A stretch of DNA of 64,000 bases, taken from Natronorubrum bangense (GTDB lineage: Archaea; Halobacteriota; Halobacteria; Halobacteriales; Natrialbaceae). The notes below the pieces were generated by a model. That model was not told where the DNA came from, did not search any database, and saw nothing but the letters and a program-made list of their open reading frames with translations. The stretch is taken from NCBI RefSeq assembly GCF_004799645.1, contig NZ_CP031306.1:496001-560000 (forward strand), given 5' to 3'. The stretch's first letter is position 1. Every line of letters starts with the position of its first letter. Shown here piece by piece: positions 36,731 through 41,249 of the stretch. The position numbers and the translations under genes are program-made.

Positions 36731-36820
36731 TGGCTGTGTTCACATACCTCTGAAGATACTGTTAAACACAATGGCAATGAGAGAGCCATGCTGAATAAGA
36801 CGGCCTTATCTCGAATCGAG

Positions 36821-37223
36821 GTGCTAAAACCCCGTCCTTTAGGGCGGGAATACAGAACCGCACATTTCGAAAACGGCCGAATCAACGGTTTTAGGTGCCC
36901 CACGGACGTATATTCAATCGTCGACGCGCCGGTTCCCCGTCGTGTCTCGACACCCACAAACTGGCAGTTGACTCGGTGTTTGCCTCATCAAAAAGTAAGC
37001 CCGTGGGACACAGACCGACAGAAAACAATGAAGTAACTCCGAGTCCCGTGCGGGATAGGAGTAACGGATGCGTGGCACCTCCATCGGTTTGTCGGACCGA
37101 AAACCATAAATCTCCCAACGAACCGCCCTTTTGGTGGGCGTGGGAAGCCTCGTCGTCGTCGGGCTCTGTCCGACTGCCTGAGGGATCTTCGATCCCTCTC
37201 CGTTTACGACGAGGAGGATGTCA
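36821..37223 (+). mobile_element. Non-autonomous IS200/IS605 (tnpB-type) element, copy A
   Basis: Begins GCTAAAACCCCGTCC, with the hairpin CCCGTCCTTTAGGGCGGG and then GAATACAG, and ends with a long stem-loop and the terminal motif GGAGGATGTCA, the typical haloarchaeal right end. The middle is a decayed TnpB C-terminal region in frame with VTPSPVRDRSNGCVAPP, KSPNEPPFWWAWEA. The copy at 40654-41010 is the same element inverted. There is no tyrosine recombinase TnpA and no catalytic TnpB region, so it can move only in trans. The right end here has an extra hairpin (GAGGGATC..GATCCCTC) not seen in copy B. Confidence 0.75.
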
Positions 37224-37244
37224 CAATCGGTCAGTATGTGGATC

Positions 37245-37934
37245 TCAGTTAGTTACCTTCCGAACGCACCATCCAGCGTAAGCCAACAACCCGCCACCCA
37301 AAGTAAATAGAACCACTCTGACTCCGCTAAGATTTCCACCTGCCGTCCAATGGCCGCCTTGAGATCGATATCGTGTTTGCCAATAATAGTCCTCGTCGTG
37401 TTCAATAATCAGGTTCTGTTCAAACTCCTCAACACGTTCGCCGTATACTGTAACCGATCCTGTTTCGACTGCCTCACGGACTTCTTTAGAGCGGTCCTCT
37501 GCATCCACACTGGCGTGTTCAACTGCATCCATACTGCTGATGTTTGAGAGCGTCAATATCGTCCTATTATTTTCGTATTCGCTTTCTGGAAGGTACATTT
37601 CGCCTTCAATCCTGACTATGGGATACAACCGCGGGTCTTCACTAGTAAGAGGGTCATCACGGGCCTCCTCGTAGTCATCTATGAATCCGTCGTATTCAAC
37701 AGAACCCGTTTCAAGTATTTGTCTTTCCAAGGCACAAGGACGTTCGCCGGGACAGTGTAATACTTGTTCAGATTGCAGAAGAGCCACTTCAGCTACACTT
37801 TCATTTTCAATCTCTTCAACATGGTACGTAACTTCGAAATCTCCGCCTCCATCCGGGTAGAAGTAGAATGGGTTTAACATAAGGATGAGGCCGAGAAGTG
37901 CGATTCCCGCAACAGCAATATATGTGCGGTTCAT
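37245..37934 (-). CDS. Membrane-anchored hypothetical protein of low GC
   Basis: A 229-residue protein with an N-terminal hydrophobic segment (TYIAVAGIALLGLILMLNPF), an extracellular acidic part of about 170 residues with two close cysteines (VLHCPGERPCALE) that could form a disulfide, and a C-terminal helix (VVLFTLGGGLLAYAGWCVR). Two-pass topology, both ends facing the cytoplasm. Codons are markedly more A/T-rich than the surrounding core genes. Its 3' end lies 21 bases from the right end of element copy A. No family is recognised. Confidence 0.7.
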   Translation of the reverse strand: MNRTYIAVAGIALLGLILMLNPFYFYPDGGGDFEVTYHVEEIENESVAEVALLQSEQVLHCPGERPCALERQILETGSVEYDGFIDDYEEARDDPLTSEDPRLYPIVRIEGEMYLPESEYENNRTILTLSNISSMDAVEHASVDAEDRSKEVREAVETGSVTVYGERVEEFEQNLIIEHDEDYYWQTRYRSQGGHWTAGGNLSGVRVVLFTLGGGLLAYAGWCVRKVTN

Positions 37935-38004
37935 AAATCGTCTTTTGGTTCTTTATAAAAACGTGTTCCGATAATTAGTATATGCTAGAACATAGTGGCA
38001 TCCA

Positions 38005-38430
38005 ATGACGATTACAGAATACACGGAAAGCTATCCAGTACCTGCTTGGCCTGTACTTACAGAACATCGAGGAGAACGCCCACGACGTCAGTCGTGTGGA
38101 GGATGTCAACGATCAAGCCCTCACGTTTTGGCTCCGTGCGGACACTGTTCGAGACGACCGACTACTGCCTCGAGAACGATATTTCCATGTTCAGGGGTAG
38201 GAAGTTCGAACTCGGCGTCGGCCGCAAACACCTCCACGCGCTCGTGTCGCTGTCCTATTTGGACGCACAACGACATCGCCCCGGTCGGGTACAACGATCC
38301 AGAACTGGAAGGTGATCTCCCCTCGAGTCCGCTTTCGCCGTCGTCGGATTCCTTCGGTCTGGAGTGATACTGCAGTACCTGATATCGGAGACCGGAGTCC
38401 AATCGGGGACTCGAGTCACGACTGGTGTGG
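38005..38430 (+). pseudogene. Decayed gene region, function unknown
   Basis: Three plus-strand frames each carry plausible haloarchaeal protein for a stretch before breaking: QALTFWLRADTVRDDRLLPR (to 38200), then KFELGVGRKHLHALVSLSY (to about 38290), then PELEGDLPSSPLSPSSDSFG (to 38366), followed by VILQYLISETGVQSGTRV. Read in order they look like one protein damaged by frameshifts. A minus-strand frame of 93 residues covers much of it (38121-38402), so the strand is not certain. The 5' part overlaps the element right-end remnant at 38057-38108. Confidence 0.4.
38057..38108 (+). mobile_element. Solo right end of a tnpB-type element
   Basis: From TTACAGAACATC to GGAGGATGTCA, including the stem CACGAC-gtca-GTCGTG (38081-38096). 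The terminal motif equals that of copies A and B, and 49 of the 52 bases equal the inverted sequence at 54588-54639. No transposase gene is attached. Confidence 0.55.
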
Positions 38431-38499
38431 TTCGCCGGAGCCGACCAACCGATACCCGTACTACTATTGTCACTGAAAGTGAACGATCACTGAACATCC

Positions 38500-39714
38500 G
38501 TGGCTGCCACATCAGATCCGTCGATAACGCTCGTTTCCGAAGCGGAGTCCGAAACGCGCCGTCGTCTCGAGGAGATTGCGGCCGACGCGTTCGCCACTCC
38601 GCAGGACTATCTTGTCAGTCTCTCCGCTCACACGCTCGCCGCACGGGTCGATGGCGAGGTCGTGGGTGGCGTCGTCCTCGATATCGTCGACGGGTCGGCG
38701 GGCGACGTCGGGATCGTGTCGTGGCTGTTTACCTCCCCGTCGGCACAAGGCCGGGGGATCGGAGACCAGCTGGTCAACGCCGCCCTGGACTACCTCGTCG
38801 AACAGGGCTGTCGGGCAGTCGTGACAGTGGTCCAGTGGCCCAACACTGCCTCGAGTGCGCTATTCGCCCGCAGAGGGTTCAGTCGTATTTCCTCGAGTGC
38901 GCTCCTCGAGCGGTTCGGCCCGAAACAGGGCGGACTCGTCTGGCACAAGACGTTTCACTTCGTAAACGTCGGCTGTGATCTCTGGTATCTGGAACTCCCT
39001 GGAGAAGAGTCGCCCGAGCCGTCGAGGAATCCGCCGGAAAAGCCCGCAAACGCAACTGATCGAGCGACCAGTGACAGTGAGGTCAGCAACTCTCGTGGCC
39101 GTCAGCGCCGCTCACCGCTTCGGACGGCCCGCCGTTTTTCCGAGACAGTCCTCGTTCATGTGGTCTTGCTCGCCATCGTCGTCGGTGGACTCGACGTCCA
39201 GTCGTGGGATCTGACGACTGTTGGTCTCGCCGTGACGGCCGGCGTGTTGCTCTCGCTTCGGTGGGCTCCGTACGCTGTATTCACATCTCGTGACCGCAGG
39301 CAGTGGGTCTTCTGGGACTGGGGAAACGTATACCCGTTCGCTGGCGCCATCGCCGTGTTCGGTGGCTTCCTTCCCGTTCCGGGCCACATCACCCCCGAGC
39401 GGTCGGAGTGGGACTATCGTGACGAGCTCTCGGTGTTGGGCCCAGCGGCGACGGCATGGGGAGTTCTGTTGCTTGCCACGCTTCTCGGCGTTATCGCTAT
39501 GAGTGAGTGGCTCGGCACGAGCGGCTGGCTCGAGGCTGCCACGCTGGAATCGCTGGTTCTTACACTTACGGTGTTCGTCGTGGTGGACCTGTTGGTGATC
39601 GTCTGGCCCTTTGATAGCTACAACGGACGGATCGTCTACGACTGGAACCGTGTCGTTTGGGCGGTGCTCTCGGGTGTCGCGGCGCTAGTTCTGGTTGTAT
39701 ACTATTTCGGGTAG
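38500..39714 (+). CDS. GNAT acetyltransferase fused to a six-helix membrane domain
   Basis: A 404-residue protein. Residues ~20-150 are a GNAT N-acetyltransferase: VVGGVVLDIV, the acetyl-CoA loop SPSAQGRGIGDQLVNAALDY near residue 82, and ASSALFARRGF near 125. A ~45-residue polar linker rich in Ser/Arg/Glu follows. Residues ~215-404 hold about six hydrophobic helices, e.g. VLVHVVLLAIVVGGLDV, LGPAATAWGVLLLATLLGV, LVLTLTVFVVVDLLVIV and VLSGVAALVLVVYYFG. Start is GTG at 38500; a downstream ATG would cut into the fold. The acceptor is unknown; a membrane-tethered acylation of lipid or envelope components is possible. Confidence 0.8.
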   Translation: MAATSDPSITLVSEAESETRRRLEEIAADAFATPQDYLVSLSAHTLAARVDGEVVGGVVLDIVDGSAGDVGIVSWLFTSPSAQGRGIGDQLVNAALDYLVEQGCRAVVTVVQWPNTASSALFARRGFSRISSSALLERFGPKQGGLVWHKTFHFVNVGCDLWYLELPGEESPEPSRNPPEKPANATDRATSDSEVSNSRGRQRRSPLRTARRFSETVLVHVVLLAIVVGGLDVQSWDLTTVGLAVTAGVLLSLRWAPYAVFTSRDRRQWVFWDWGNVYPFAGAIAVFGGFLPVPGHITPERSEWDYRDELSVLGPAATAWGVLLLATLLGVIAMSEWLGTSGWLEAATLESLVLTLTVFVVVDLLVIVWPFDSYNGRIVYDWNRVVWAVLSGVAALVLVVYYFG

Positions 39715-39793
39715 CCCGACACAGGACTATCTCATCAGACATCCTGACTGGCACCACGGTCCGGCTCAAATGGCGTTTTTCAGCGGCCTCCGA

Positions 39794-39940
39794 TCACTCC
39801 CGTGGCACTTCGTGTCGCTCGCGGTCGACGTATCGCTGTACGAACCGTTCGGGGTCCTCGAAGACGTAGTCGTGGGACTCCCAGATGCTTATTTCGCTTG
39901 GGTACCGAGGACCTGTATGCAGTGGTGCGACCAGCCAACG
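39794..39940 (-). pseudogene. Possible minus-strand gene remnant
   Basis: A minus-strand frame ending TGA at 39794-39796 reads SEISIWESHDYVFEDPERFV then QRYVDRERHEVPRE, with strongly G/C-ending codons and acidic composition, like the C-terminus of a haloarchaeal protein. Upstream (toward 39960) the frame stays open but has no suitable start codon and less typical composition. It may be the truncated end of a gene. Short plus-strand frames over the same DNA are less convincing. Confidence 0.35.
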
Positions 39941-39999
39941 AGACCATCCGGGAGCGAGGGTGTGAAGGCTTGGAACCGAAGCCTGAAGGAGGAAGTGGC

Positions 40000-40653
40000 G
40001 TGACCGCTGACCCCCTTCCAGCCGAACACCTCTCGTCGCTCGCCACGCTTGTTGATGAGGTACTCGCAGGCGTCGGCTACGAGGTGACGGCCGCCACAGA
40101 CGTCATCGACAACGCTGTTCCCGGCTACGGCGGTCTCTTCGACCCTGCGACCTCCCCGACCGAGTTGCGTCGCGCGATCGAAACTCTGCCGGGGTCGGAA
40201 CTCACTCACCCACCCGTCCCAGAGCCGACGAGCGACACATTCATCCTCTATGTCGACGGCAGCTCCCGGGGCAACCCCGGTCCCGCAGGGGCAGGCGCTG
40301 TCATCATGGACGCTGCGGAGGACCAACTTGCCCGTCTCGGCCGACCCGTCGGCTCCCGGACAGGGAACAACACCGCCGAGTACGTCGCTCTCCAGCTTGG
40401 ACTCTCTCAACTATTGGCTCGCTACGAGCCACGTCGGCTGGAAGTCCGAATCGATTCGATGACAGTCATCCAAGACGTCTGGGGTGGCGATGATCCGACG
40501 GAATCGGGCGTCGAAACGTACAGCGAGGCCGTCGCAGCGGCGCTGTCGAGCATCCCGGAACACCAGTACACGCATCTGGCCGACAGCGACCCGAACCCCG
40601 CCGACGCATTGGCGACTGTAGGTGCCGATATCGCGGCCTTTGGGCCTGGCTAG
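40000..40653 (+). CDS. rnhA: RNase HI-like protein
   Basis: A 217-residue protein. The C-terminal ~140 residues are an RNase H fold: DTFILYVDGSSRGNPGPAGAGA with the first catalytic Asp, TGNNTAEYVALQLGL with the Glu, and LEVRIDSMTVIQDVWG with the second Asp; DSDPNPADALATVG supplies the last Asp. It would cleave the RNA strand of RNA-DNA hybrids. The N-terminal ~70 residues (AEHLSSLATLVDEVLAG...) form a helical extension as in other haloarchaeal homologues. GTG at 40000 is the likely start (GTGA overlap with a dubious upstream frame). The stop TAG is directly followed by element copy B. Confidence 0.85.
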   Translation: MTADPLPAEHLSSLATLVDEVLAGVGYEVTAATDVIDNAVPGYGGLFDPATSPTELRRAIETLPGSELTHPPVPEPTSDTFILYVDGSSRGNPGPAGAGAVIMDAAEDQLARLGRPVGSRTGNNTAEYVALQLGLSQLLARYEPRRLEVRIDSMTVIQDVWGGDDPTESGVETYSEAVAAALSSIPEHQYTHLADSDPNPADALATVGADIAAFGPG

Positions 40654-41010
40654 TGACATCCTCCCCGTCGTAAACGACGGGGCCTCCCACGCCCACCAAA
40701 AAGGGCGGTTCGTTGGGAGATTTACGGTTTCGAGTCCGACGAACTCGTGGAGGTGCCACGCATCCGTTACTCCTATCCCGCACGGGACTCGGAGTTACTT
40801 GGTTATTTTCTGTCGGGCTGCGTCCCACGGGCTTACTTGTTTAATGAGGCAAACACCGAGTCAACTGCCAGTTTGTGGGATGTCGAGACGCGACGGGAGA
40901 CCGGCGCGTCGACAAACGAATATACGTCCGTGGGGCACTAAGTCTTCCGTTGGGACGTTTGCGAAACGTGCGGCGCTGTATCCCCGCCCTAAAGGACGGG
41001 GTTTTAGCGC
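40654..41010 (-). mobile_element. Non-autonomous IS200/IS605 (tnpB-type) element, copy B
   Basis: An inverted relative of copy A at 36821-37223, sharing nearly all segments over about 357 bases with mostly point differences. On the minus strand it starts GCTAAAACCCCGTCC with hairpin CCCCGTCCTTTAGGGCGGGG and ends CCCCGTCGT-TT-ACGACGGGG (40663-40682) then GAGGATGTCA. The middle again holds a fragment of the TnpB C-terminal reading region (VTPSPVRDRSNGCVAPP). The right end begins at the base after the RNase HI stop codon. No transposase is encoded. Confidence 0.75.
40663..40682 (-). repeat. Right-end stem-loop of element copy B
   Basis: CCCCGTCGT and ACGACGGGG form a perfect 9-bp stem with a two-base loop, nine bases from the element end. 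In IS200/IS605 elements such end hairpins are recognised by the transposase and, in tnpB units, form the 3' part of the guide RNA scaffold. Confidence 0.6.
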
Positions 41011-41249
41011 CTCAATTCATGATAACGTTACGCCGCTACGGATTTCGACGAAACCACCGAACTGTTGCTCGAGACTCTTTCACTCGCTGGTCGCTCACGC
41101 CATTGATCGACTGTTAAGCCGAGTGCGGCGATGGAATTGAACAGGGACCAGCCACCGGTTGTGATACCGTCAGCGGTAGTGAGACCTTGTGTTTAATTCA
41201 CGCGACACAAATACGAGTACTCATGATCTCTCACTTGTATATTCTAGCT

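Follow-up and report, generated by a model that had tools for sequence, protein, structure and literature searches.

Two inverted units with IS200/IS605 ends

The window, by which we mean the whole 64-kb stretch of DNA analysed (G000:C2:496001-560000, from a haloarchaeon), contains two short units with both ends of an IS200/IS605 element, which raises the question of how such units move and whether the RNA that they could encode is used by a nuclease made elsewhere. The answer that we find rather likely is that they are non-autonomous, PATE-like IS200/IS605 elements, moved by TnpA in trans and encoding an RNA that uses TnpB in trans. Sequence comparison gives good support to the element itself, its mobility signature and the selection on its RNA.

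The original prediction described one unit present twice, in inverted orientation, at 36821-37223 and 40654-41010. Pairwise alignment confirms that the two are inverted homologues (87.6% identity across 354 bp), with true ends slightly wider than proposed. Copy A spans 36810-37224 on the plus strand (415 bp, TCAC at its end) and copy B spans 40653-41021 on the minus strand (369 bp), borders that were set by alignment with other copies and by the empty sites of sibling copies. Copy A is the longer because two extra hairpins lie within its right-end hairpin; the same two recur at C2:683.5 kb, in an element that has decayed. A transposase is indeed absent, no TnpA or TnpB domain being found within the window, and neither copy contains a protein gene. 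The predicted left end, TnpB C-terminal-like frame and right hairpin followed by GGAGGATGTCAC are all present.

Both copies abut a TTAT outside the element, the target and left cleavage tetranucleotide with which most copies are bordered on the left (36806-36809, plus strand, for A; 41022-41025, minus strand, for B, as placed by the alignment of copies). The left end consists of the guide AAAA and a subterminal hairpin, CCCCGTCCTTTAGGGCGGGA in copy A (36826-36849, plus strand), where the outermost pair is lost (CCCC...GGGA), and CCCCGTCCTTTAGGGCGGGG in copy B (40982-41005, minus strand). There follow a 5' RNA domain (A, 36919-37023, plus strand; B, 40808-40914, minus strand) and an omegaRNA-like scaffold (A, 37031-37215, plus strand, together with the TnpB-like frame; B, 40662-40800, minus strand). 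The frame VTPSPVRDRSNGCVAPP of the mini-elements resembles genuine TnpB C-termini such as ITPSPHGEDRSNGCVAQPS and VSPSLATDGGDRSNGWLAQPS. The TEM and right cleavage site, GGAGGATGTCAC, occupies 37213-37224 on the plus strand in A and 40653-40664 on the minus strand in B, with predicted guides starting at 37225 and running from 40652 downwards, respectively. Subterminal palindromes are present at both ends of A and B, and terminal inverted repeats are absent.

The ends follow the IS608 code

The empty-site evidence comes from the sibling copies L034 and L035; A and B are judged by their borders alone. Sites empty of L034 were found in the sister species G008 and G003, and sites empty of L035 in G008, G003, G006, G007 and G009. 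At all of these sites the junction lies immediately 3' of TTAT, and nothing is duplicated. The RNase HI gene next to copy B is homologous to plasmids up to the element border and no farther. In two Haladaptatus plasmids, 13 and 14 places match.

For IS608, the published combinations of guide and cleavage site are AAAG/TTAC and GAAT/TCAA (PMC5934647). The mini-elements carry AAAA/TTAT on the left and GAAG/TCAC on the right, and a left guide AAAA calls for the cleavage site TTAT, as the IS608 code predicts. A sot0042-type tnpB element of the same genome (C2:419 kb) has exactly the IS608 values, AAAG/TTAC and GAAT/TCAA, and another resident element with tnpA and tnpB has AAAG/TTAC and GAAG/TCAC. 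Read position by position, a rule that is our own reading, the fourth-position changes in guide and cleavage site obey the IS608 code, as those of TnpA substrates should.

Seven TnpA frames are present in the genome. A candidate TnpA donor is L184 (G000:C2:632000-636500), an IS605 element that carries both tnpA and tnpB and has exactly the same left hairpin, CCCACGACTTCAGTCGTGGG, as L034 and L035. Its loop GTGGCT is able to pair with its own TEM, AGTCAC.

A U.G wobble in the left hairpin had been taken as a sign of selection on an RNA. The pair is real, but the argument fails: TnpA recognises the left hairpin on that same single strand, in which T.G can pair too, and the hairpin sits 5' of the omegaRNA, so the wobble cannot tell RNA from DNA. 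TnpA recognition of a single strand predicts it equally, and we therefore reject it as proof of RNA.

A family spread over haloarchaeal genera

Copies A and B, with L034 and L035 on contig C1 (~68% identity), make up the four type I copies of this genome, 359-415 bp in size, laid out as TTAT, left hairpin, 5' RNA domain, omegaRNA scaffold, right hairpin and TCAC. The nearly invariant core CTGGCAGTTGACTYGGTGTTTGCCTCAT served as the search pattern for the family. It occurs at 16 loci in GTDB genomes, in Halogranum, Haladaptatus, Natronococcus, Halomicroarcula, Natrinema, Halegenticoccus, Natronoglomus and other genera. Among 392 Halobacteriales genomes it recovered about 46 copies in 23 genomes and 14 genera, and the reversed pattern matched 0 times in those 392. 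After removal of duplicates we examined 47 units, a right end being detected in 41. The distance from core start to right end is 210-240 nt in most complete copies, copy A (264) and L073 (279) being outliers; right ends are nearly always TCAC, and the sequence beyond the element differs between copies. No similarity to TnpA or TnpB was found inside any of the 47 units, and at four type I loci a separate TnpB lies farther off.

In a tree of scaffolds, 36 of 40 type I units cluster with a second orphan type and with no TnpB-linked RNA (weak support, 65-70); four units with a different insert are placed elsewhere. L046, L062, L102 and L103, which this tree sets apart, form a type I subgroup whose 5' domain has a longer insert (ACGGCGAGAGCCG...) following TTTGCC. 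Other elements with a sot0042-like RNA are type II-like (L036, L086-L090, L099-L101, L190-L192, L194 and L207) or type III-like (L038, L039, L195-L203 and L208-L209). They have other 5' domains (motif GGCGG...CCGCC...GAGACAGTATCCG), and TnpB similarity is mostly absent nearby. L197-L200 and L202 are near-identical copies with different right flanks. In G002, most of the 17 retrieved sot0042 loci have no TnpB similarity nearby.

Compensatory changes in an omegaRNA-like scaffold

The 3' half had been proposed to be omegaRNA-like, and this is borne out by the Rfam family sot0042 (RF02656), a haloarchaeal omegaRNA called sotRNA, which aligns end to end with A and B and also with L003 and L082. Positions 1-174 of the model are covered in both copies (A, 47.8 bits, E 4.7e-10; B, 55.7 bits, E 2e-12). 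Scores in the mini-elements are 33-56 bits against a gathering score of 88, that is, below threshold; judged from the alignment, the A and B scaffolds are homologous to sot0042, and we do not file them as RF02656 members.

In the consensus structure of 36 units, 96.1% of cells are paired and 18 of 44 pairs show compensatory change. Its covariation score of 0.315 exceeds those of slid versions (0.038-0.072) and shuffles (0.153), the structure having been predicted from the same alignment that was used for scoring. Compensatory changes are located in helices 2 and 3 of the 5' domain and helices 7, 8 and 9 of the omegaRNA part. The stems are kept through compensatory change; the left outer pair of copy A is broken. 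The opposite strand, too, folds better than its shuffles do (z -12.9 vs -15.3), with lower covariation there. A pseudoknot between loop and TEM has been reported for haloarchaeal omegaRNA (PMC12558985). Here GTGGCA:TGTCAC forms 6/6 pairs in 38 of 40 units, three of which, in Halogranum, have changed to GTGGCC:GGTCAC. RNAs linked to tnpB carry TTGGCA:TGTCAA or GTGGCA:TGTCAC.

Compensatory changes together with a kept pseudoknot indicate that RNA, and not the DNA ends alone, has been under selection. This bears on the foremost alternative, that the units are ordinary PATEs, DNA passengers of TnpA in trans whose omegaRNA part is an unused tnpB relic. Such elements have been described in Haloquadratum, where HqIRS71 includes part of the tnpB C-terminal region (PMC3119063), and DNA ends alone would explain the mobility. 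However, TnpA has no need of the compensatory changes found across many genera in helices 2, 3, 8 and 9 and in the pseudoknot, and the conserved 5' domain lies outside its sites; we consider this alternative unlikely. That neither the loop nor helices 7-9 are needed by TnpA favours selection on an RNA fitting TnpB. The covariation is a record of past selection on the family, not of present function in copy A, where one pair of the left stem is broken.

Possible TnpB partners

Eight sot0042-like RNAs are present in this genome, and only one follows a TnpB. The omegaRNA part of the mini-elements overlaps no tnpB 3' end. The sole resident TnpB with a sot0042-type omegaRNA (C2:419 kb) is of class TTGGCA/TCAA, whereas A and B are GTGGCA/TCAC. 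A TnpB of the GTGGCA/TCAC scaffold class that also has TTAT as its target was not found among those of this genome, and A and B may therefore be unserved now. Complete tnpB-bearing relatives, called for by the original prediction, do exist: in other haloarchaea, full elements carry a TnpB frame preceded by a left end that shares 93% identity with the left end of copy B over 56 bp. In the sister species G002, G003, G005 and G008, TnpBs are found with a GAAG...TCAC right end and a GTGGCA loop. The TnpB elements L230, L231 and L233 have a small frame (MERFEINGHEVVDGDVRPTGNGAHVYVPRRWLGADVKIVRVSE...) ahead of TnpB, right after the left end that they share with copy B.

The RNA of A and B probably uses TnpB in trans. 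A Y1 TnpA from another element would excise and insert the mini-elements as single strands. A transcript running toward TCAC would carry a guide copied from the right flank, and TnpB would load this RNA in trans through the conserved scaffold and pseudoknot. It could then find and cut the vacated donor site (TAM TTAT plus flank), and we propose that the element would be regained when a sister copy serves as the template for repair of the cut.

The same RNA might instead act as a decoy that occupies TnpB and limits cleavage rather than guiding it. A role of this kind has been proposed for circular omegaRNAs (PMC12558985), and it would suit both the retention of TnpB-binding features with an added 5' domain and the excess of resident sot0042-like RNAs that have no TnpB of their own (7/8). 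The intact boundary between TEM and guide would be superfluous for a decoy, yet TCAC is needed by TnpA too. On balance we regard antagonism of TnpB as improbable.

A 5' RNA domain in the place of tnpB

Use of TnpB in trans leaves a role to be assigned to the 5' domain, the ~110 nt that separate the left end from the scaffold. It comprises a hairpin and a closing stem in which three pairs change in a compensatory manner (CCGAA/TTCGG and CCACA/TGTGG types), and its interior hardly varies. In copy A its core is CTGGCAGTTGACTCGGTGTTTGCCTCAT. Helices 1-6 of the consensus structure fall in the domain. A model of the domain, R1, scores 108 bits (E 4e-22) in A and 105.8 bits (E 1.4e-21) in B, having been trained on these same copies, A and B included. 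R1 had no match in 22 TnpB loci of this genome, and the domain matched no Rfam family.

The units had been called tnpB-derived. They are related to tnpB and have both IS200/IS605 ends, but they are not simple tnpB deletions, because a conserved and separate RNA domain occupies the place of tnpB; its absence from the 22 resident TnpB loci leads us to reject a simple internal deletion of a tnpB element. We favour the view that the domain helps to produce or load the omegaRNA where there is no tnpB message. It probably stands in for the context of the tnpB mRNA, whether in folding, 5' processing or TnpB recruitment, and this is the weakest point of our explanation.

The domain might also have a function independent of TnpB, as a ribozyme, a riboswitch or a binding site for a host protein, the omegaRNA half being only a DNA end. 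Its invariant blocks, its covarying closing stem and its lack of an Rfam family would agree with this, but the pseudoknot and hairpins of the omegaRNA half co-evolve too, and such a function seems to us very improbable. An IStron was rejected, as group I intron matches were absent from four units (E<=1) and from the window region (E<=0.1); so were a classical MITE, there being neither terminal inverted repeats nor target duplication, and a compound transposon built from the inverted A/B pair, the borders being independent and the copies 12% different.

Relation to known systems

Like the PATEs of Haloquadratum walsbyi, the mini-elements are short and transposase-free, with IS605-like subterminal palindromes, no terminal inverted repeats and no target duplication, and one PATE type has a tnpB C-terminal segment (PMC3119063). 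They differ from those PATEs, for which RNA coding is not described there, in having a conserved 5' RNA domain and an omegaRNA scaffold, whose base pairs change in a compensatory way in many genera. With sot0042 and the haloarchaeal omegaRNAs (RF02656; Halobacterium sotRNAs, PMC12558985) they share the alignment over positions 1-174, the order of hairpins, the right-end hairpin, the TEM and the pseudoknot; unlike sot0042, they have no overlapping tnpB, an extra 5' domain, and GTGGCA/TCAC in place of TTGGCA/TCAA. The guide/cleavage code and the left ends (93% over 56 bp) are those of IS608/IS605 and IS1341-type tnpB elements, from which the mini-elements differ by lacking tnpA and tnpB. A search of a limited literature for TnpB-less or trans-acting omegaRNAs found none, which does not prove novelty.

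For IscB, omegaRNAs are known whose genes lie apart from that of the nuclease; for bacterial IS605 elements, PATEs are known. TnpB is the ancestor of Cas12. Separation of a guide RNA from its nuclease gene is the step from OMEGA to CRISPR, and a mobile element reduced to its DNA ends plus a scaffold of guide RNA under selection is a natural example of such separation. The mini-elements predict multi-guide TnpB complexes within one cell, and with them simple genetics could show whether TnpB is able to maintain elements that are not its own. More tentatively, they could represent a dedicated class of mobile trans-omegaRNAs in which the 5' domain replaces the tnpB message. Such protein-free elements would parasitise TnpA for movement and TnpB for retention by cutting of the vacated site, and would exist in several haloarchaeal 5'-domain types, together outnumbering tnpB-attached omegaRNAs in some genomes.

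The window also contains, at 38057-38109 on the plus strand, a TTAC followed by a 49-bp element made of termini only (AGAACATCGAGGAGAACGCCCACGACGTCAGTCGTGTGGAGGATGTCAA). Its left end is like that of the resident 419-kb tnpB element and is fused at the palindrome to the right end of that element, an arrangement resembling the 52-bp core-deleted PATE of ISHwa23 (PMC3119063).

The same right-end hairpin, followed by GAGGAGGUCAG, is found at the end of the Rfam consensus of HgcC RNA (RF00062), which scored above threshold in one control genome. The loop of the first HgcC hairpin, CUGACC, is fully complementary to GGUCAG, and by this likeness HgcC may itself be an omegaRNA-type RNA.
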